Source of the DNA: Butyricimonas synergistica DSM 23225
GTDB taxonomy: Bacteria > Bacteroidota > Bacteroidia > Bacteroidales > Marinifilaceae
Direction: 5' to 3'
DNA: 64,000 nt
Assembly: GCF_000379665.1 (NCBI RefSeq)
Contig: NZ_KB903372.1
Span: 822-64,821 of the forward strand
Part shown: positions 2,662 to 44,851 of the stretch, one piece after another
Layout of the letters: each line of letters opens with the position of its first letter
How positions within the stretch are numbered: the stretch's first letter is position 1
Made by a program: the position numbers and the translations under genes
The notes under the pieces: generated by a model
The model's database searches: none
What the model saw: only the letters and a program-made list of their open reading frames with translations
Told to the model about the DNA's origin: nothing

Positions 2662-5600
2662 TTAAAAACTCACGTTCACACTCAAGGAATAATTCCTTGA
2701 TAAAGGTTGATTACCACTTGCTACTTCCGGATCCCGTCCTTGAAAATCTTTACTTACAATCTGGAAAGGATTGCTAACCGTAAATGACACACTCACATCC
2801 TGTGCGTAACGAGAAATCAATCTCTGGGGTATATTGTAAGAAAGAGTAATATTATTACATCTCAAGTACCAGGCATCCACCACCCTGACATCAGAATAAG
2901 GATAAGCTTCATAAGGATAAAAAGATTTCCAATTCTGATAAAAAGGATAAGATGCCAAATTCGTCGTCGGGTGAGGCAATGAAGGAATGTTCGTGTGAGC
3001 CTCATCACCAGGCTCTCGCCAACGTTTTACCATTTCCGTGGACATATTTAAATATTCACTCGGAATCCGTCCCCTGGAATTCATTTCTTTGAAAGGAGAA
3101 GCCAAAAATTTTTGATTCCCCGTGCTCAAATAGAAATTGGCTGTCAATGTCAACGTTTTATACCGGAATGAGGTATTCAAACCCGCGGTAAAATCTGGAT
3201 CTAACTTTCCCGCATAAACCATATACCGGGTTGCATCTTCCCAGGCTGCCTCCGAATCACTTCCCGAAAGGTCAAATTCAGGAGCCCCGTTTTCAGGGTT
3301 CAACCCGGAGAAACGGAATGCCCAAAAACTAGACATGGCATACCCTTCCTTGTTCAATTCTCCCGACACAGCCTCTTTCCAATCTCCCGTAGGCTCCAAA
3401 GAACTCTTCAATTTATTGTACACTTGGGAAGTATTCATCCCCAACGACCAAACAAAATCCTTTGTCCGTACAGGCACCACGCTAACACTTAAATCCCAAC
3501 CGGAATTTGTCATATTCCCGCCATTAATAACCATAGAAGATACCCCGTTAGCATACGGCACCTTACGCTCCGTGATCATATCTACCGTACGTTTGTAGTA
3601 ATACTCGAACGTTCCGTTTATCTTGCTCTTGAACAAACTAAAATCAATACCCAAGTTCAAGCTTTTATTCTTTTCCCATTTCAAATGAGGAGCAGGCAAA
3701 CTTTTAATACTTAACTTCAAATCATCGCTACCGCTTAATTCATCCACGGGTACAAATTTCGCAATCAGCTCCGGTCCCACATTCTCCGCAACATTTCCTT
3801 GAAAACCATAAGATGCCCGAATACTTACATCATTCAATATATCCTGATTTTCCAACCAGTGCTCCCGGGAAACATTCCAACGCACACCCACGGACCAAAC
3901 GGGTTGGTATCTGGCACTTTTATCCTGCCCAAAACGATTGGAGGCATCCACACGAATACTTGCATTCACCGCGTAACGCTCGTCAAACATATAACTCATA
4001 TTGCCATAAAAAGACAAGTAATTCGCTGTCCGGTCCGTGATCGAGGGACTCGTTCTCACCAGTTTATTCTTTTCCCCCTTCTCGCCTATCGTGATCGGCA
4101 CCTGGGCAAACGACTTGCCCCGGTCAGGCATATAACCGTAATTCTTTTGAGTATAACCGTCATACTTGTTACTTCGGGATTCTTGTCCCAGCATAACACT
4201 AACAGCATGCTTCCCGAAATTATTAATATATTCCAATTGATTACGCCAAGTATAATTGTCATTCCTACTCTCAACGACATTTAATAATCCTCCCACGGGT
4301 AAAGGCGAATTTTTGTACTGAATATCCTCGGAACCGTAAGCTCCAAATTCATACTCTCTTATTGCAGTAATATAATTAGATTCTTCCGTGTACCATGATT
4401 CACCTAGAGAAGAAGAATGATTATATCCCAAGGTAGAAGACAGTGTCAACCCGCCAACAATATTCCAACGTACACTTAGATTACTATTCACACTACTTGT
4501 TGTATTTTCATTGCCGCTATTATTCAGTTCATGGACAATATTATACAAGTAATTATTTTCCCCTTTCGGGTAAAAATACAGACTTCCATCCTCGTTATAA
4601 CAAGGAATAGCCCGATTGGTGGTACTTGCGTACGTATAAGGATCAACACTCGCAAAACCGGTTGTTTTCACCACACTACCAGCTAACCCGGCATTCAATG
4701 TCACACGATTCCATAAAGTTGAAGTAACATTAAAACTTCCATTGTACTGTTCCAGTCCATTCCCCTTAGCCGTATTTTCACTTCGATTAATACCCAAGGA
4801 TGCCCGGTAAGTAGATTTTTCATTTCCTCCCGAGATACTAATATTGTGGCTATGGCTAAACGGAGTCCTGAACAAAATATCAAACCAATCCGTGTTCATC
4901 GCTTCAAGTTTCTTGGCTTGCGTGTTAAATTCGTCATAACTAATCTCTCGTCTTTTATAAGCCAATGCCAAAGCCATATACCCAATCGGATCCTCCAGCT
5001 CCACGATACATCCCCGTTCATACGCCTCCCGGGAAACACCAACACGTTGCTGTGAATTCATCAATTCCATGTTCTTGTAGCTCATTTTCGCGCTCATCGA
5101 GAAATTTCCGCTATAATTCACGGACATTCTACCCCGTTCTCCTTTTTTCGTCGTGATTACAATCACCCCGTTAGCAGCCTTCACCCCATAGATTGCGGTT
5201 GACGAAGCATCTTTCAAAACGACGATATTATCAATATCGCTAGGATTCAACCAAGCAATAGCCCCTCCCACGAAATTCTTAATCATATCCATATTATCGT
5301 CACCGATATCCGTTAATTGTGCCGCATTAAAAGGTAACGGGTCTTCCTGAATAATCCCGTCCACAACCCATACCGGTTCCGGGTTTCCTAACAAAGTCGA
5401 AGTTCCACGCACTCTCACCTTTTGGCGGGTACCCGTCAAACCGCTTTGGTTAATCACCATCATCCCCGGCAATTTACCTTGTAATGCTTGTTCTAACGTT
5501 TGTGTCCCGTTTACCACCAGGTCACTCCCCTTTATACTACTGGTCGAACCCGTCATCCCCCGTTTCTTCACCGCCTGATAACCTGTAACCACAACCTCTT

Positions 5601-6297: not shown

Positions 6298-7497
6298 CTA
6301 CAAACTCAACTTTTTATCTAGATAAACCATTTTGTTTTCCATCCTACATTTCACATTCGACGTCATCTCTATAAAATCCAGCATGAATTTTAAAGATTGG
6401 GCACGTTCGACAGCCCCGGTAAAACGAATTGCACGAATAGCTTCATCCGTGAAAGAAAACTCCACGTCATACCAACGCGTTAGCTGTTTTACCAACTGTT
6501 CCAATGGCATATTCACGAAATCAAACATCCCGGATTTCCAGGAAACGATCAAATTCACGGGCACTTGTTGTTTCATCAACGATTTCCCTTCTATATCCCA
6601 AACCGCCTGCCAACCGGGGCTCAACATTTCCCGTCCCGTCGCCGCATTTACTTGCACCTTCCCGGTTTCCAAGGTTACGACTGAAACATTTTCGTCCCGA
6701 TAAGCCATTACGTTAAATGATGTCCCAAGAACCTTCATATCTAAATCTTTTGCATGAACAATAAACGGACAAGCCTCATTCTTCGCCACTTCGAAATATC
6801 CCTCTCCCACGATCTCCACCTCCCGGGTTGCCCCCGTGAAACGCACCGGATATTTTAACTCGGTTTCCGAATTCAGCCAAACTTTAGTTCCGTCCGACAA
6901 AGTCAAAATATATTCACCTCCCCGGGGAACGATCAACGTATTATACTCAACTGCTTCCCCGAAAACTCTCCCCGACAAAGAATCCTCTTTCGCCATATAG
7001 CACAATCCCGCTCCCACGCTATGCTCAACACTTACCCTGTCCATTTTTAATACAAAAGAAGAATCCTTGTGAATAACCATCCTCTTCCCGTTATCCAAAA
7101 GCAAGGTTATATCGGAATGCCCGCCCAATATCTGAGATGCCCCGTTTTTTTCAATATACTCTTGTTTTTCCGGGAACCAAAACATGGTTGAAAACAATAA
7201 CAAGCAGGCAGCAACCGCTCCACTCCAGAGATACAATCTTTGAGATATTCTCCTTCCTCGTTTTTCCCGCATGGGCAAACGAGATAATATTTTTTCTTCT
7301 GCCCGGGTTAAATTTATACGATTATATTTTTCCGCGTAACTCACGCGATAAAGTAACCGGAATAATTGTTTCAAACGCTTCTCGTTGGCAGGCTCCTCTT
7401 TCAACCATGCAGCAATATCTTCTTCTTGCCTTGAAGAAAATTTCCCACCCCAAAATTCCAAGAGGCTCCGGTATATTTCATCGTATTTCTTTTTCAT
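6298..7497 (-). CDS. FecR-family anti-sigma factor (locus A)
   Basis: A 399-residue inner membrane anti-sigma protein. The cytoplasmic part (about 1-87) binds the sigma factor, one transmembrane segment spans about 88-107, and the periplasmic part holds the FecR domain (motifs VPRGGEYILTLSDGTKVWLN and EGYFEVAKN, then KVLGTSFNV) and a C-terminal DUF4974 domain (RWYDVEFSF, IRFTGAVER). It is encoded between its sigma factor and the STN-bearing SusC it should sense. In this family, substrate-loaded SusC signals to FecR and frees the sigma factor. Confidence 0.93.
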   Translation of the reverse strand: MKKKYDEIYRSLLEFWGGKFSSRQEEDIAAWLKEEPANEKRLKQLFRLLYRVSYAEKYNRINLTRAEEKILSRLPMREKRGRRISQRLYLWSGAVAACLLLFSTMFWFPEKQEYIEKNGASQILGGHSDITLLLDNGKRMVIHKDSSFVLKMDRVSVEHSVGAGLCYMAKEDSLSGRVFGEAVEYNTLIVPRGGEYILTLSDGTKVWLNSETELKYPVRFTGATREVEIVGEGYFEVAKNEACPFIVHAKDLDMKVLGTSFNVMAYRDENVSVVTLETGKVQVNAATGREMLSPGWQAVWDIEGKSLMKQQVPVNLIVSWKSGMFDFVNMPLEQLVKQLTRWYDVEFSFTDEAIRAIRFTGAVERAQSLKFMLDFIEMTSNVKCRMENKMVYLDKKLSL

Positions 7498-7566
7498 CTG
7501 TTCTTACGGACTTTTATCCATTAAACAGATATTTCAAAAAAAAGGGTGACTCAAATACGACTTTTT

Positions 7567-8145
7567 TTAATCAAACGAAAAATTTCCAAGTAAAAAAAGG
7601 AACACGAGAAGATCTTTTCGATCTCCCAAATCGTCGCGTAACTGTTTCATTCCCTTCCTTAGTGAAGTTTTGACTGTATTAATTGAAATTCCAAATCGCT
7701 CTGCAGTTTCCGCGTAAGAATAATTTTCACAAACCACGCTATAAACGATTTCTCTCATACGCTGGGGTAATTTATTCAATGCCTCGCGTACCAGTTGAAC
7801 TGTTCTCTCGTCCAATCTCTCGGCTTCATGAAAAGCGATATCTAAATGGGAAGGAGATATTCTTTCCGTCTGAATGCCACGGTGTTCTAGTATATTAAAA
7901 CAAGCATTTCGGCTTATCGTGAACAAATAGGTTGACAAAGCTTTCGCGTGTATCCCATCAAACAGACGATTTTCCCAAAGCTTGATAAACTGCTCCTGCA
8001 CGATATCCTCGGATTCAGACAAATTATGCATAAATCCGTCAACAAAAAGAACTAAAGAACGGTAATAACGTCGCAGTAAAAACTTCATACCGTCCCGTTC
8101 CCCGGACTTTAGCATTCTCAATATGTCTGCATCATCATGTATCAC
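7567..8145 (-). CDS. FecI-type ECF sigma factor (locus A)
   Basis: An ECF sigma-70 factor with region 2 (FMHNLSESEDIVQEQFIKLWE) and region 4 (LPQRMREIVYSVV, then the helix-turn-helix YAETAERFGISINTVKTSL). The open frame extends up to an ATG at 8232, but the first 29 residues are not sigma-like. I favour the GTG at 8145, giving IHDDADILRMLKSGE, the usual beginning; the start is uncertain. The C-terminus is a short hydrophobic tail (LLVFLFLLGNF), as in the other three sigma factors here. It should transcribe the susCD genes downstream under FecR control. Confidence 0.88.
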   Translation of the reverse strand: MIHDDADILRMLKSGERDGMKFLLRRYYRSLVLFVDGFMHNLSESEDIVQEQFIKLWENRLFDGIHAKALSTYLFTISRNACFNILEHRGIQTERISPSHLDIAFHEAERLDERTVQLVREALNKLPQRMREIVYSVVCENYSYAETAERFGISINTVKTSLRKGMKQLRDDLGDRKDLLVFLFLLGNFSFD

Positions 8146-8293: not shown

Positions 8294-9400
8294 TTATTTG
8301 ATAATCTCAACAAGAACGCAACGATTCCATTCATCTTTGTCATAACGGGAACTAACACCTTTATGATCCTTAACAACGCGCTGCTTGCTTATTCCATATT
8401 TGTTGATAAACATATCCGCAACGGCATTTACTCGTTTTTCAGAGATAATCATATTTGCTTTCTGCGTTCCGCGTTTATCAGCGTAACCGGTTAAACGAAT
8501 ACGCACATCAGGATTCTCTTTCAGGAATTGTGCTAAATTATAAATACCCACTTCTTGGGTTGCATCAATCTTATAGCTATTGAATGCGAAATTTATAGTA
8601 GTCGGCAGAGCCTTGTATTCGACATCGGTCTTAGTCGTCGGAACTTCTTGTTTTACAATTTTCACAACAGTATCCGGAGCTCTTCTCAACAACTCTTGGA
8701 TCTGGGCTTCTTGTGCTTTTGTCAAAGTTTGAAGCTCTGCATATTGCTTGTGGCTAACAGCTTTCTTGAAAGAACGGTTTTTGAATCTATAGGTAACACC
8801 CACGCTCAACCCCATGATACCGTCATTGGGAAAACCACCGCGAGTCACAAGATCGTCATCCAAAATCATTCCGGAATATTCCAAATTCAAGTCAAAGCGT
8901 TCACACAAACGGAAACGAGCCTGAACACCGGCATTAATCGTGAAAGATTGGTCACTGCCAATAAACGCTCCCCCGATCCCGGCGAAAGGAACCAAATCAA
9001 AACAACGTTTCTCGTTATAACGTCCGAAAAAATTCAGCAACCCGAACATGAAATCTCCATGAACAGCTCCATAATGTTTATGCAACATGGTATTCCCGTT
9101 ATTCTGGAATCCGTGTAACGCACCTCCCTGACCTTGTACTCTCACTCCCCACCACGGTGCGAACCATTTACCGACAGACAATGCCGGCATAAAAGTCAAT
9201 CTATCCCCGAATTTAGCATCAGTAGAACCTTCCGCGTAAAGAGCTTGGGCACCAAAATTCAAAGAAACAAACCAATTATCCCAAAAATTATTGGTTTCAA
9301 AAGATGTTTTGTAACCAGGTAAGTTTTTTTCTTGGCTAGATTGTGCAAAAGTTGAAATGCACAACACCAACATGCATACAAACAATAAATTCTTTTTCAT
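8294..9400 (-). CDS. OmpA-family outer membrane protein
   Basis: A 368-residue outer membrane protein starting at the ATG at 9400, which gives a clean signal peptide (MKKNLLFVCMLVLCISTFAQ); an upstream in-frame ATG at 9448 would add an unlikely leader. Residues about 35-215 look like an eight-stranded barrel (FVSLNFGAQALYAEG, GVSVGVTYRF-type strands). The C-terminal OmpA domain has FAFNSYKID and LTGYADKRGTQKANMIIS with the Asp/Arg pair that binds peptidoglycan. It anchors the outer membrane to the cell wall. It is a single-gene unit with its own terminator, between the fimbrial operon and locus A. Confidence 0.9.
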   Translation of the reverse strand: MKKNLLFVCMLVLCISTFAQSSQEKNLPGYKTSFETNNFWDNWFVSLNFGAQALYAEGSTDAKFGDRLTFMPALSVGKWFAPWWGVRVQGQGGALHGFQNNGNTMLHKHYGAVHGDFMFGLLNFFGRYNEKRCFDLVPFAGIGGAFIGSDQSFTINAGVQARFRLCERFDLNLEYSGMILDDDLVTRGGFPNDGIMGLSVGVTYRFKNRSFKKAVSHKQYAELQTLTKAQEAQIQELLRRAPDTVVKIVKQEVPTTKTDVEYKALPTTINFAFNSYKIDATQEVGIYNLAQFLKENPDVRIRLTGYADKRGTQKANMIISEKRVNAVADMFINKYGISKQRVVKDHKGVSSRYDKDEWNRCVLVEIIK

Positions 9401-9748
9401 TTTCAAAATAATTAAAATGTTTATTCGTGTAACAATCCTCATATACAAAATTGAAAAAACATCGCAAAATTAATAAAATTCACGCACAACACAACAAACA
9501 AATAAACATACCTTTGAAAGGCACCTTTAGTTAACTGAGCGTTTTGTAAGTTACAAAACACTCAATTGGGAATTTACACCCATGAGCTTTCATTTTGCCA
9601 TAAACACACCCCAAAGTCTGTCCATAAAGTCACATACATCACAAAATTACGCGCAATTACACTGATAATCACCAATTTGTACATTGCTTGACTTTATAGA
9701 AATTAGGAATTAAAAGGCGTGTTTTGATACACTTCCCCGCATAATTAT
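9401..9748. other. Intergenic region with an imperfect palindrome
   Basis: No gene is visible. A 29-base imperfect palindrome lies at 9536-9564 (TGAG-c-GTTTTGTAA / TTACAAAAC-a-CTCA), and CCTTTGAAAGG at 9511-9521 is a small perfect one. Neither has a T-tract on the minus strand, so they are weak terminator candidates for the fimbrial operon that ends at 9749. A TAATTTTG box on the minus strand (9465-9472) may belong to the OmpA-gene promoter, but its upstream element is poor. Confidence 0.4.
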
Positions 9749-40135: not shown

Positions 40136-40720
40136 TCAGTGCTCCATGAACAACCGCCCCAAAGCGCACAGCACCACCACGTAGTCATAATTGGCAAAAG
40201 CCTCCCGCAGCCGTTCCATCCCGCGGTGCAATTGTGCCTTCACGGTATTCTCGTTCATACCGAGCCGTTCGGCAATCTCGCTATACTTGTACCCCTCCCC
40301 GAAACGCAGCATACACACCTCCCGGCAACGTTCCGGCAATTCCTCCATCACCTGCCTGATCTTCGCCAGCAACTCCTCGTCCTCCACCATATCCACGTTC
40401 TGCGACTCAATATAAGCCTCGGCATATTTCCGGTTATTCCGGTCTTCAATTTGCAGGCTCTTCAAATAATTCAGACACCCGTTGCGCACGGAAGTGAAAA
40501 GATAATGCCGAATAGACCCCCTCAACACCAACTGCTCGGCATTCTCCCATATACGCAGAAAAACATCCTGCACGATATCATGTGCCCGATCAGAGTCATA
40601 GATATACTTCTCTGCGAAAAGATATAACTTCTCGTAATACAAATCAAAAAGCGTGGCAAGCGCCGCTTCTTTCCGATGTCTTATACCCTCGACAAGATTG
40701 TCATACTCCACATCATCCAT
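40136..40720 (-). CDS. FecI-type ECF sigma factor (locus F)
   Basis: A 194-residue ECF sigma factor with region 2 (YIYDSDRAHDIVQDVFLRIW) and region 4 (LPERCREVCMLRFGEGYKYS, then EIAERLGMNENTVKAQLHRG). It ends with a hydrophobic tail (YDYVVVLCALGRLFMEH). It has its own promoter at 40743-40772, placed after a terminator, so its expression is separate from the RNA element upstream. It should direct transcription of the ten-gene locus F when FecR is relieved. Confidence 0.93.
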   Translation of the reverse strand: MDDVEYDNLVEGIRHRKEAALATLFDLYYEKLYLFAEKYIYDSDRAHDIVQDVFLRIWENAEQLVLRGSIRHYLFTSVRNGCLNYLKSLQIEDRNNRKYAEAYIESQNVDMVEDEELLAKIRQVMEELPERCREVCMLRFGEGYKYSEIAERLGMNENTVKAQLHRGMERLREAFANYDYVVVLCALGRLFMEH

Positions 40721-40742
40721 ACATCAGGAGATTATCCATCTG

Positions 40743-40772
40743 CAAAGATAATGATTCACGCGTAAAATCAAA
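40743..40772 (-). promoter_or_regulatory. Bacteroides-type promoter for the locus F sigma gene
   Basis: On the minus strand TTTG (40772-40769), an 18-base spacer and TATCTTTG (40750-40743) give a good Bacteroides promoter. Predicted start near 40736, about 16 bases before the ATG. The spacing is the same as in the locus I sigma promoter at 57950-57979. Confidence 0.7.
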
Positions 40773-40791
40773 GCAAAAATCAGATCGGTAC

Positions 40792-40825
40792 AAAAAAAGA
40801 GGGGGAAGTGTCCATATCTTCCCCC
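40792..40825 (-). terminator. Rho-independent terminator upstream of locus F sigma gene
   Basis: On the minus strand GGGGGAAG / CTTCCCCC (arms 40818-40825 and 40801-40808) with a nine-base loop is followed by CT and seven T (plus-strand A at 40792-40798). It closes any transcript arriving from the RNA element at 40945-41147 before the sigma gene promoter. Confidence 0.8.
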
Positions 40826-40944
40826 CGCCGCCGTCTTGAATTGGTTTGGTTGCATTTGGCGGTCGCTGTCTTGCTTGTACAACACCACTCGTACATCACA
40901 GACAATCAGATCAAAAAACTATCATTACTAAATATTTTTGAGCA

Positions 40945-41147
40945 TAAAAAAACGCACCCAATCTTAGCCGACACCTCCCACCGCTGGAAACGAAAGAGGA
41001 TGTAGAACTAAGACGGGTGCGTAAATTTTTATATATACGCACTCCGTCCCCAAAAGATCACCCTTTCGTTTCCAGCGGTGGAGATGATCTTTGGTTTTAG
41101 TACATTTAAAGGTTCTAAACTCTACCGAGCGAAATCTCCATCGCTCG
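40945..41147 (-). ncRNA. Putative structured RNA of about 200 nt, unknown family
   Basis: No open frame is present, but the segment is full of long complementary tracts. CCACCGCTGGAAACGAAAG at 40978-40996 is perfectly complementary to 41063-41081 (19 bases). A nested hairpin lies at 41013-41047 (11 pairs, one bulged A). AAAGATCA/TGATCTTT pair at 41053-41060 and 41085-41092. CGAGCGA/TCGCTCG at 41126-41132 and 41141-41147 enclose a loop whose ATCTCCA is complementary to TGGAGAT at 41079-41085, a possible kissing contact. On the minus strand a final stem (ACGCACCC/GGGTGCGT plus TCTTAG/CTAAGA, 40952-41022) is followed by seven U: a terminator that excludes the nested hairpin. I do not recognise the family. 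Confidence 0.6.
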
Positions 41148-41152
41148 TGTGA

Positions 41153-41160
41153 CAAAGGTA
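41153..41160 (-). promoter_or_regulatory. Candidate -7 box for the structured RNA
   Basis: TACCTTTG on the minus strand (41160-41153) matches the TAnnTTTG box of Bacteroides promoters and lies six bases before the first hairpin. The upstream -33 element is imperfect (TTGT around 41181-41184), so this is a moderate match only. Confidence 0.45.
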
Positions 41161-41554
41161 TAAATAATTTCCAAAAAAGTACAACATGCCTCTAAATACT
41201 TTAAATATCGAACATTTTCTGACATTTGTTCCCCTGATTTCCCCGATAAACCGGGATCCTACACTGTTAAGCAATTAAAAGGCGACAATTAGCAGACAAA
41301 TAGGCGACATTGCCCCTCTCTTCGCCTACTCCTCCGTCAACGACAGAACTTCTCGGAGTATTTTCATCGAAGTGCACACGAGTGAAAAAGTCCCTAAAAC
41401 AAACGAGAAATTCTCGGATATAAAACTTCTCGTTTTCCCCAGATCAAATAATACAACATTTGTCACACCCCTCCCGCCAATAAATAATCTTCTTCCACGA
41501 AAGAAGTTGCACAAAAAGTCTCATTTATCATAGAGAACGATGGCATATCAAAAG
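41161..41554. other. Non-coding stretch after the ABC-2/M1-like gene
   Basis: In these 394 AT-rich bases I see no credible gene, tRNA or strong terminator. Small frames inside it lack any family resemblance. It separates the end of the ABC-2/M1-like gene (41555) from the structured RNA. Confidence 0.4.
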
Positions 41555-44500
41555 TTATTTTTTCACCCACTTCACGGCATCGGCAACAATGATCTGTTTT
41601 CTCGGAGGAATTTCCCAGCCCTTCTCTACATACTTGGGATCCGTCTCAAACGTACAACCCCGGTCATCCAAAACAACCGTTGCTTTCATTCCCGCCGGGA
41701 AATAATATTTCCCGAGAGAAATCCAACCTTCCATTCTCTCGCTCAGATCAACCACGACTTCCTTACTTTCTTCCCCGTAACTTACCGTGTAGTACAACTC
41801 TGCACCTTTCCCGTAGTTCTCCGTGATTCCGGTATTATCTATCGGAATATGATAAAAGAATACCTCGTACTCTCCTTCTTCTGGTAATATTTGATTCCAT
41901 TCCGCCTTAAGCCGCCCATTACCTGCTAATTTGGCAAAAGCATTGCGTAAAATTCCACCATAAAGCTCTGCCATGATTACCTCTCTCCACCGATTCTCCT
42001 CTAGCAACGAGATGCCTTTAAACACAATTTCATCTTTCTTGAAAAAATCAGCCAATTTTCGACGCCCCCCGACAGAATCAATCAAATGGAAACCCTCATC
42101 CGTGTTATCCACAATATACTCTCCTTCTTTCGGGAAAAACTCTCCCGGATCAATATCTGTAACGCCGATAGAAAGATCCCGTGCAACTGGACTTTCCCTA
42201 AATCTATAATCAGTCGGGTTGAAATGAAAATCGGCAGGTGCATTGTATGACAATCCCGTTGTGATCAAATGCTGGGTTGCAAATGGCTCTATCTCTTTGA
42301 CTTCCTTGCATTCACCCGGACGAATCAAAAAACTTTTCACGCTTAGCCCTTTATCCGAATAAAATCCATCTTGCCCGATCAAAGATATAACACCATCCAC
42401 GGAAGAAGGATTATATACTTTAAAACTCACCTTCAAGTGCGGAGCATAGACATCATCCTCCGCTCTCTCGTACCGAATATCCTTTAGTATCAACGAGGAC
42501 ATTCCCCGGCTATCGTACCACTCGTCAAATATCGGTCCAAGATCGACACCGGACAATTCCTCAAATCCTGATCGAAACACCTCGAAATCACAAGTACGCC
42601 CTCTCGCTTGCCTGTAAAAATCTTCCATGAATCTATATAGCACAGTCCAGTCCACATACAAAGCAATTTTACCCTGCAATTGTATCAATTTCGCGGTAAG
42701 GTATCGCATTGAAACCCTTGCCAGGCTCGAATCTTCCAATGATTTTTTCGGACTATGCTTATCAAAATATTCCACCATCTCCAAATGGCTATCATCGCTA
42801 AATTCATAATCAAAACGACTATTTAACCGCATAAGAGATTCCATTACAACATTAATAGCAAGATAGACCGTAGAGGATACATAATTCGAAAACTCCCCGG
42901 CTTGTTTGGATACGTCAAACAAGCCCCCGCTCAATCCCCCGAAAAAAGAACTCGTGATATGAGGCTCCCGACGCATCTCAATCACTTGATTGTCCATATG
43001 AACGATGTTAGAAGAATAATATAATTTCTGATGAGTTATAGAAAGAAACTGAGATTCAGTCCCTCGTTCCGGGATAAAAATCATTTCCGGCTGCGAATAA
43101 CTGGAACCCGCTACCCACCAGCGGGAATGCGTGGTAAAAGACACGGGTATTTCCACGAAAGCTAAACGCTCAAAAGGATATTTCCGACGGATATGTGCTT
43201 CTTCCACCCACCTCTTTGTCCGAATCAGTTGCACCTCCTTTGCCTCGTCGCCCTCTACCTTCTCCCAATCATCGTATTCCTTTATCAAATACTCGCTCTC
43301 CGGGAAATAATAAATCTCGAACTCCACGCTATCAATCGTCATTGAACATCGCAAGTAATTTCCAATCGCGAGCGAGAGTCCCGTGTGACGTTGCGCCGGA
43401 GTGTGTGAAATCCGATCTCCCTCCCGAACAGCCTTTCCCTGCGAAATCACGGTTTGCCCCCCGGCATTGTGCACGTTCAACCTGCAATCTATAAAATGTA
43501 CTTCCCGAACGAAAGCGATTTCCAGGTTCAAAGGAGGCACCGTCACAGGATACCATAAACATTCAGGATGAAGGAACGTGAACTCCGGCGAACAATACGC
43601 CAATTGCCGCCCTGTCCGAAGTATTTTTCCCATCGAACTTTTCGTCTGATAAAAATCACTGGATGGAATATCAAGATAACAAACCCGATCATCAATCTCG
43701 CCTTCGTACTCCACAAATAATCGTACGCTATCTCCCGCTACCAAGGGATACTTCACCTTTAGCACCTGACCATCCCGTTCCGAAGCGACGGCTTCCCCTT
43801 CCACATCCAATCGTTTCACACGTAAACCCGGATTCAAGAAAAACAACAAAGTTTCCAAATCTTGCCCCGTGCCGTTTTTCAACATCAAACGACTCGTTGC
43901 ACGGTATCCGTCAGGTAAAACAAAATAATCGATATGATGCTCCGAAACCGTCGCATGAAGTTCTTTTGCATGGCGAGCGTATAATGCCCGATACTTCTCT
44001 CTTGTGCTTTCCGACTCCGTAAATATCCGTGAGAATCCAGCCATCAACAACAATCCTATCAAACAAGAGCATATTCCTCCCCATACACAAGCACGACCGG
44101 GTCGCCTCGCGTTGGGCAAACGAGGCATACTCCACACCGATAAACAAATCAACCCAATACCTATCAACAAATATCCCATCCTGTGCGGCAGATATTCCGC
44201 CAAGCCCACGTGTCCCACATATCCAGAAAACACGTTTGGAATTACACGTCCCCAAGGATCAAACACCCCGTGTCCGATCTCCGACAAGAAGAAATAGGTC
44301 AACAACAGATACCCCAGCAGCAGAAGCAACGCCAAAAAATGAATCTTCACCACTCGCATCGCGAACAAGGACAATCCCAAAACAAATACTAACGTGGGTA
44401 ATGTCAATGTCAAAAGATAGAAAACATTAATCCACAAACTCAACGCCCCTTGATAAAACAACGCTTGAAAAAGAGCGGCAATCAACAACACGACCACGTT

Positions 44501-44851
44501 CAGTACCAATATCAATCTAACGATTGCCCCAACATATCCCATTGTCCGTTCCCCGTTTCCTGCCGGATAAACATCAATAACTTCCATCGCATCACGCTTT
44601 TCCCATGCACGGACAAAACTATACACGACAAAGACTACAATCAATGCCTGTAACAGATTAAAATAATAGGATACCATATAAGGTATTGAAGAATCAAGCG
44701 CAACATCTGCCCACAAGTGATAAATCAGTTTAGGAAACAACAAATAAATCGTAATTCCAACAGCAATAAACACGAAAATCCGCCACAATATACCCCGACT
44801 AATCATTCGGGACTCGTAGCGGGCAATATTCCTGATCTCTCGAAAACCCAT
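41555..44851 (-). CDS. ABC-2-type permease fused to M1-like and golvesin-like domains
   Basis: A 1098-residue membrane protein. Residues 1-275 hold about seven hydrophobic segments in an ABC-2 permease pattern (IARYESRMISRGILWRIFVF at the start). A large extracytoplasmic part resembles the M1 aminopeptidase half of Bacteroidota permease-peptidase fusions (beta domain from about 300, then PEMIFIPERGTESQFLSITH and FEELSGVDLGPIFDEWYDSR). I find no HExxH, so peptidase activity is doubtful, though I am unsure whether the whole subfamily lacks it. The last 100 residues (WISLGKYYFPAGMKATVVLD, VADAVKWVKK) resemble a golvesin/Xly carbohydrate-binding-like domain. No ATPase subunit is encoded nearby. 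It lies 215 bases downstream of locus G on the same strand. Confidence 0.7.
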   Translation of the reverse strand: MGFREIRNIARYESRMISRGILWRIFVFIAVGITIYLLFPKLIYHLWADVALDSSIPYMVSYYFNLLQALIVVFVVYSFVRAWEKRDAMEVIDVYPAGNGERTMGYVGAIVRLILVLNVVVLLIAALFQALFYQGALSLWINVFYLLTLTLPTLVFVLGLSLFAMRVVKIHFLALLLLLGYLLLTYFFLSEIGHGVFDPWGRVIPNVFSGYVGHVGLAEYLPHRMGYLLIGIGLICLSVWSMPRLPNARRPGRACVWGGICSCLIGLLLMAGFSRIFTESESTREKYRALYARHAKELHATVSEHHIDYFVLPDGYRATSRLMLKNGTGQDLETLLFFLNPGLRVKRLDVEGEAVASERDGQVLKVKYPLVAGDSVRLFVEYEGEIDDRVCYLDIPSSDFYQTKSSMGKILRTGRQLAYCSPEFTFLHPECLWYPVTVPPLNLEIAFVREVHFIDCRLNVHNAGGQTVISQGKAVREGDRISHTPAQRHTGLSLAIGNYLRCSMTIDSVEFEIYYFPESEYLIKEYDDWEKVEGDEAKEVQLIRTKRWVEEAHIRRKYPFERLAFVEIPVSFTTHSRWWVAGSSYSQPEMIFIPERGTESQFLSITHQKLYYSSNIVHMDNQVIEMRREPHITSSFFGGLSGGLFDVSKQAGEFSNYVSSTVYLAINVVMESLMRLNSRFDYEFSDDSHLEMVEYFDKHSPKKSLEDSSLARVSMRYLTAKLIQLQGKIALYVDWTVLYRFMEDFYRQARGRTCDFEVFRSGFEELSGVDLGPIFDEWYDSRGMSSLILKDIRYERAEDDVYAPHLKVSFKVYNPSSVDGVISLIGQDGFYSDKGLSVKSFLIRPGECKEVKEIEPFATQHLITTGLSYNAPADFHFNPTDYRFRESPVARDLSIGVTDIDPGEFFPKEGEYIVDNTDEGFHLIDSVGGRRKLADFFKKDEIVFKGISLLEENRWREVIMAELYGGILRNAFAKLAGNGRLKAEWNQILPEEGEYEVFFYHIPIDNTGITENYGKGAELYYTVSYGEESKEVVVDLSERMEGWISLGKYYFPAGMKATVVLDDRGCTFETDPKYVEKGWEIPPRKQIIVADAVKWVKK

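Follow-up and report, generated by a model that had tools for sequence, protein, structure and literature searches.

In phage P4, the CI immunity RNA is derived from a leader, pairs with leader sequences and promotes termination. According to PMC5320573, the C4 RNAs of phages P1 and P7 carry variable loops that set specificity within a conserved structure and provide superinfection immunity; they are about 77 nt long, processed by RNase P, composed of three stem-loops and directed against mRNAs, with one loop lying partly over ribosome-binding sites. In PMC4825925, a short terminated isoform of IsrK, from prophage Gifsy-1, is described as acting in trans on a read-through isoform, and IsrK switches on translation leading to AntQ. 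For pIP501, PMC4981023 describes the antisense RNAIII, which is made from its own convergent promoter and pairs with the repR leader to cause premature termination and thereby copy number control. We looked at an RNA of about 205 nt in Butyricimonas synergistica DSM 23225 that, in our best reading, works like the C4 and IsrK RNAs and like pIP501 attenuation without being a member of those families. Like C4, it is found in phages, through some of its relatives, and has a variable part, the proposed specificity region, within a conserved structure; unlike C4, it has its own terminator, carries its own complement and has no match to RF01695. The likeness to IsrK was set by description and not by sequence, and the present RNA differs from it in being a predicted termination switch with exchanged specificities, while it differs from pIP501 in having both complements in one transcript. 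With the P4 CI immunity RNA, it would have in common that a leader-derived RNA promotes termination, a likeness that is also one of description and not of sequence.

The window, that is the whole stretch of 64,000 nt that was analysed, sits on contig 14 of the 4.77-Mb genome. The RNA lies on its minus strand at 40946..41150 (205 nt), with a 1,098-aa frame (41555-44851) on one side and a 194-aa frame (40136-40720), sigma factor-like by eye, on the other. Both ends, 41150 and 40946, are putative and were placed from a promoter box and a U-tract. The box, TACCTTTG (41153..41160, minus strand), is a -7 element of the form TAnnTTTG, which we take to be the Bacteroidota-type promoter box consensus, and it stands at the predicted 5' end where a first-pass annotation of this DNA had seen it. 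When ten related RNAs were compared with 5' ends chosen by ourselves, a TAnnTTTG box was found directly upstream of the start in nine, the window RNA included; the exception was L073, a second copy in the same genome, with TATCTTCG. The 203 nt of the minus strand between 40945 and 41147 have a folding energy of -89.9 kcal/mol, whereas their shuffled versions average -52.8 (z = -8.5; none of 200 was as good), and the opposite strand folds comparably (z = -8.3) because a long inverted repeat forces such symmetry. The strand was therefore assigned from the promoter box, the U-tract and covariation. As for the neighbouring 1,098-aa protein, it has 22 matches at E <= 1e-50 in its own genome, itself counted, and its best-scoring match in the other genomes of the genus is 35% identical.

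The search for homologues in relatives yielded six members, the window RNA included. A DNA search of 59 genomes gave two matches (one full, one partial), both in genome G005; a longer DNA query on 56 family genomes gave one further match, in G001, and a degenerate pattern search gave one viral contig. We also used R1, a covariance model built from five sequences, which matches the window RNA at 184.1 bits, the window being one of those five, and which revealed L073 (109 bits). Class I comprises the window RNA, L075 (G005), L074 (G001) and L060 (the viral contig), and class II comprises L073 and L076 (G005). R1 matched three of the 56 family genomes, all from the window's genus, the own genome being one of them, and one of 393 order genomes, the own genome again, with at most six candidates scored per listed genome. 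Distant relatives may be missed, since both R1 genome scans had stricter filters and the order scan took few candidates per genome. A pattern that misses some members found one contig in a genome collection. Two additional viral pattern scans found nothing, R1 matched none of three viral loci showing the H1 pattern and only one of the 30 showing the H3 pattern, and DNA searches of phage and plasmid collections with window, L060 or L073 queries gave no match. In the sets searched, the RNA was thus confined to the window's own genus, sampled as the own genome and five others, and to one viral contig. The evidence base is these six close members and four distant ones described below, all named ones being Butyricimonas.

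Gene surroundings differ among the six members. L074 lies in prophage sequence, with a tail-fibre-like gene and a peptidase upstream and an integrase and a tRNA downstream, and L075 has an integrase about 2 kb away. The L060 contig, from IMG/VR, matches the L074 prophage at 84% over 238 nt; three of its genes were tested and one had a PHROG match, of unknown function. About 1 kb from the class II RNA of L076, we noted a Bacteroidales small SRP RNA and two tRNA genes (7376-7660), a cluster that is a possible integration site. When the L073 locus was compared with five relatives in search of an empty site, these had argF in common and then diverged. Six members at different places, two of them beside or near an integrase, together with the long inverted repeat, are what a DNA-level palindromic or mobile element would also present, be it for recombination, for integration or as a repeat remnant, with transcription incidental. 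We find such an element improbable: two copies were found in the own genome (at most six candidates scored per genome), and the exclusive folds presented below covary with G-U allowed on one strand, the same strand that has the promoter box and the U-tract. An insertion-element repeat was rejected as well, the two family copies of the own genome, within the same limit on candidates, being at different loci.

The helices of the RNA are real, and every stem listed in the first-pass annotation was recovered on the minus strand. The 5' hairpin H1 (41126..41147, 7 bp between 41126-41132 and 41141-41147) keeps its pairing through sequence change, as seen by inspection, its arms being CGAGCGA/TCGCTCG in the window, AGGTGAA/TTCACCT in L074 and GAACGTG/CACGTTC in L076. 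It is followed by segment A (ATGTACT, 41099..41105), which pairs with segment B in fold B and with A' in fold A; over the six members, A·B is paired in 95.2% of cells and A·A' in 88.1%. The hairpin H2 (41053..41092), with its 8-pair stem 41085-41092/41053-41060, holds in its loop the variable, putative recognition sequence L2 (TCCACCGCTGGAAACGAAAG, 41063..41082), which is also the 5' arm of the helix P2. Between the window, L076 and L073, both sides of the H2 stem changed with pairing kept (A-T to G-C and C-G to T-A, by inspection), and H2 was left out of the tool count because its register is shifted by one base in L075, L074 and L060. The nested hairpin H3 (41010..41050), made of segments B and B', has both-side changes in 3 of 16 pairs and 94.8% of cells paired. 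Anti-L2 (40978..40996), the perfect complement of L2, starts 67 nt past the end of L2. Together they contain the perfect 19-nt inverted repeat 40978-40996/41063-41081, the longest of three in the 64-kb window when perfect repeats of at least 12 nt with arms 40-140 nt apart are counted, and 4 of the 10 counted pairs of P2 are altered on both sides. Finally, the terminal stem, or terminator T (40952..41022, with a B' side at 41022-41006 and an A' side at 40969-40952), has B' in common with H3. Both-side changes affect 5 of its 16 pairs, with 94.7% of cells paired (4 of 7 and 92.5% for the apical helix), and it leads into the seven U of the U-tract (40946..40952), the first of which is also paired in T. 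U-rich 3' ends of this kind occur in all six class I/II members and in three of class III; class IV has none.

The 7-nt kissing loop proposed earlier has its match in the window but is not conserved in relatives: by eye on the alignment, the loop-loop match is reduced to some 5 nt in L075 and some 4 nt in L074 and L060, with none in L076 and L073. Downstream of the U-tract, the interval 40827..40945 shows 90% identity with L075 across 111 columns of the alignment, holds no ORF conserved among class I and ends at T2, a second intrinsic-terminator-like hairpin on the minus strand (40792..40826, GGGGGAAG..CTTCCCCC, with T7 within two bases). A protein-coding reading of the RNA itself was discarded, as no frame is common to the six members when frames of at least 20 codons are compared; those inside the RNAs are a 63-aa TTG frame across the window RNA, one of 66 codons in L076 and one of 44 in each of L074 and L060.

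The segments can pair in two ways. In one, B pairs with B' (H3) and A with A'; in the other, A pairs with B and B' with A', which gives an intrinsic terminator. P2, the L2:anti-L2 helix, is predicted to co-occur with H3 and no terminator, and H2 with the terminator. In a MAFFT alignment of the six members, fold A (P2, H3 and A·A') was paired in 93.9% of cells with 7 pairs changed on both sides, and fold B (A·B and T) in 94.4% with 10 such pairs. For either fold, none of 500 shuffles matched the paired percentage, the doubly changed pairs or the covariation score, in a control that ignores relatedness and with helices picked from the same sequences; the further pair types of fold A were not above shuffles (397 of 500 as high). 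Pairing fell to 23-55% when partners were slid by one to three columns. At column 141, which belongs to the stretch common to H3 and T, L073 has T in place of C, and each of the two alternative partners, columns 105 and 192, carries a compensating change. The mutually exclusive stems announced by the first-pass annotation, and the compensatory changes in relatives by which they could be recognised, are therefore seen for both folds. Since both folds covary, the switch is a firm conclusion, and we regard it as very probable that this RNA alternates between two exclusive folds, so that terminator and antiterminator are mutually exclusive by computation, through covariation and energies.

To look at the predicted switching, we used ViennaRNA folding, which ignores pseudoknots and kinetics. 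In the minimum-energy fold, T was absent from all six class I/II members, and forcing it cost 2-18 kcal/mol. Masking L2 or anti-L2 raised the mean probability of T from 0.00 to 0.85-1.00 in each of the six, and for L074 and L060 H3 fell from 0.99 when free to 0.31 and 0.17. With a sliding 16-nt mask from which windows over the H3 and T arms were excluded, 5 to 9 of the 27-29 starts per member flipped the RNA to T, 40 in total, and 38 of these overlapped L2 or anti-L2, the exceptions being position 89 of L076 and position 93 of L060. When prefixes of four members were folded, L2 was in H2 before anti-L2 existed in the window RNA, L075 and L076, not in L073. The class III RNAs gave a mixed picture: L179 flipped with L2 masked (0.61-0.98) and not with anti-L2 masked (0.16), L181 gave 0.02-0.13 with L2 masked and 0.75 with anti-L2 masked, and L182 reached at most 0.34. 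Masking of the recognition loop therefore favours T in six of six class I/II members and, with L2 masked, in one of three class III members. The P2-containing cis fold has an energy advantage of 2-18 kcal/mol, so an RNA acting in trans would have to win kinetically.

We then compared the members region by region. Between the window and L075, identity is 92-96% in H1 and the part upstream of it and 90% in the 3' flank, with a core at 63%, whereas L075 and L074 have 87% identity in the core and 39-67% outside it; L074 and L060 are 99% identical in the core and 70-93% outside. In class III, L179 resembles its viral copies at 84-100% in the flanks and 61-62% in the RNA core (0.86-0.98 and 0.62 for L179 against L181), and the cores of the two viral copies, L181 and L182, are 99% identical. 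Near-identical loci with unlike cores, and unlike loci with a like core, indicate that the core was exchanged or changed on its own. This exchange is not universal, as the pairs L074/L060 and L181/L182 keep 99% identical cores. For nine RNAs, the L2:anti-L2 duplex was computed at -18.1 to -36.3 kcal/mol with the own partner against -1.7 to -16.4 kcal/mol with other types. By duplex energy, the six class I/II members fall into three specificity types, with -23 to -36 kcal/mol within the own type and -2.9 to -16.2 with the others.

Variable recognition loops are typical of target-specific small RNAs. A terminated small RNA that acts on host or phage mRNAs via L2 or anti-L2, locked by P2 until remodelled and constitutively terminated, would agree with this, with the own promoter box and terminator, and with the fact that class I has no conserved ORF between T and T2; we nevertheless hold it to be unlikely, because self-complementarity survives large sequence change, which target selection alone does not explain. 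Moreover, the 18-nt part of the window L2, with its own arms set aside, found three sites in the own genome, each with 3 mismatches, against nine for a reversed-pattern control, and no trans target of the window L2 beyond control level was retained there. Pairing of L2 or anti-L2 with the DUF6266 surroundings of L075 and L073 was not significant either (best rank 13 among 200 mononucleotide shuffles, in eight tests).

A peptide frame was found on the same strand after the class II to IV RNAs and not after those of class I. The 43-aa frames after the class II RNAs (L073 8050-8178 and L076 8443-8315) are 44% identical in amino acids, with a simulated chance of 0.0004; their differences by codon position are 20, 11 and 22, with 9 synonymous and 24 non-synonymous codons. 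A protein search of six genomes of the genus gave two related frames, L179 (8315-8449, E 0.0035) and L180 (7785-7913, E 0.0099), L172 and L173 being dropped for an internal stop and eight weaker matches left out. These peptides are 43-45 aa long and end in P[IV]C.N. No match was found in Pfam or PHROGs for class II, or in NCBIfam or PADLOC for classes II-IV, and the L179 peptide had no match in phages and only partial Azospirillum matches in plasmids, at E 0.2 or worse. In class I, the best of many weak peptide matches (E 0.069) was outside the interval after T. The L179 frame belongs to a G004 prophage that carries Rha and KilA-N genes, is also present on two viral contigs (98% and 87%) and starts right after the U-tract of a class III RNA that is laid out like class I/II, with H1, A·B, B·B', B'·A' and P2. 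Around it, the Rha and KilA-N genes and, just downstream of RNA and peptide, a gene for an NYN-domain protein were noted (3825-5271 and 8718-9530). The L180 frame, in the own genome, is 209 nt after a class IV RNA, with further hairpins between; this RNA has H2, P2, H3 and T, without the U-tract and without the 8-bp A·B helix. Classes III and IV, reached through the peptide family, are unrelated to class I/II in sequence and similar in layout. When every helix had to be unbroken and 8 bp or longer, the three-helix layout occurred in 8 of the 10 RNAs and in 39 of 2000 shuffles, in 7 and 4 respectively when A·B was added, and in 5 and 2 at 9 bp. These counts are not independent because L181/L182 and L074/L060 are near copies; the window RNA and L073 fail at 8 bp because their helices are bulged (H3 in the window).

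The four-segment terminator/antiterminator layout and the peptide ORF that follows in classes II, III and IV could likewise belong to a riboswitch-like leader, an attenuator of the peptide that senses a ligand, temperature or a protein and uses P2 and T as its expression platform. This we consider quite unlikely, since the core is the most variable part between the window and L075 and among L179, L181 and L182, the opposite of a ligand pocket, and since class I has no peptide ORF. The first-pass annotation had proposed an independent small RNA and not a leader. We regard that proposal as uncertain: no gene of the window is clearly tied to the RNA, but a small ORF follows in classes II-IV, and T itself belongs to the switch. 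The RNA is better described as a terminated transcript with a possible second role in attenuation.

DUF6266-like gene pairs adjoin the RNA in L075 (9974-11368) and L073 (5807-7551), with matches below Pfam's cut-off or none, and in L075 both genes are divergent from the RNA. In the window, a dufB remnant (41320..41374, plus strand) corresponds to the 3' end of a DUF6266-like gene, at 89% over 55 nt to L075 11299-11353 and, by tblastn, at 77% over 22 aa (E 3e-5); nothing else of the gene pair is present here. As L075 has the pair and the window keeps one gene end, the window locus most likely lost these genes, with a short direct repeat as the site of the loss. Each of the six genus genomes contains 10-27 DUF6266 matches, and DUF6266 genes were rejected as a constant partner of the RNA after 30 other DUF6266 regions of G000 and G005 gave one R1 match, at E 3.4. 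An extra 13-nt inverted repeat (GGTTTCAATACAA) was seen between the divergent DUF6266-like genes of L073 (6504-6593).

An Rfam scan of the window gave no match at gathering score except one tRNA, and at E <= 10 the region 40700-41400 gave five weak matches, the best being tsr31 with 22.6 bits against a cut-off of 50. No Rfam family thus reaches its threshold for this RNA, in line with the first-pass annotation, and the exclusion of tmRNA, RNase P and SRP RNA holds at the locus. The C4 antisense RNA (RF01695) was absent from the E <= 10 matches in this region and in L179 8050-8600, and none of nine loci matched it at gathering score. The earlier idea of a 6S RNA, or of another housekeeping RNA, drew on the length of about 200 nt and can be practically dismissed: no 6S covariance model, 6S-Flavo (RF01685) included, matched at E <= 10, and just 3 of the 56 family genomes have an R1 match. 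Our literature searches gave no title recognised as describing this RNA. PMC8040213 presents candidate structured RNAs of human microbiomes, some of them palindromic and in Bacteroidetes near phage domains, and these could overlap with the RNA described here.

Altogether, we favour a bistable self-antisense transcription attenuator of exchangeable specificity, carried by phages and accessory regions of Butyricimonas, and we put it forward tentatively, at somewhat less than an even chance. It is favoured by the covariation, the masking, the duplex energies, the mosaic cores, the layout and peptide of classes III and IV, and the prophage or phage context of L074, L060 and L179, and weakened by the small number of members, the more stable cis fold, the L073 prefix, the mixed class III results, the unexchanged cores of two pairs, class I without an ORF, the gaps of class IV and the bulged H3 of the window RNA. 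From the masked folding, the orthogonal L2/anti-L2 pairs and the repeated core exchange, we infer that like RNAs drive the switch in trans; transcription and function of the RNA are likewise deduced from its sequence. In this attenuator, a terminated RNA, from the same or a related element, would pair with L2 of a new transcript before its anti-L2 emerges, and this capture of L2 would force termination at T. As copies of the same specificity accumulate, expression beyond the terminator would fall, and such copy-dependent termination could serve as dosage control or as immunity against like elements, while L2/anti-L2 pairs that diversify or recombine would escape cross-recognition. In classes II-IV, control would fall on the gene of the 43-45 aa peptide; since no peptide follows the window RNA, the window copy may be an orphan or only a terminated small RNA. 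A more doubtful extension is a phage-borne self/non-self system in which L2 would be the key and anti-L2 the lock, swapped as a cassette, like copies silencing each other and unlike copies ignoring each other; it would go with a constant promoter, flanks and peptide, and with a switch type kept across classes unrelated in sequence.

If the attenuator reading is true, masking of L2 would alter termination at one site, and a cognate RNA, not a non-cognate one, would do so in trans. The specificity region would then be exchanged as a cassette between near-identical elements, and phages of Bacteroidota would gain a system of RNA-based specificity, similar in kind to plasmid incompatibility or to C4-type immunity.
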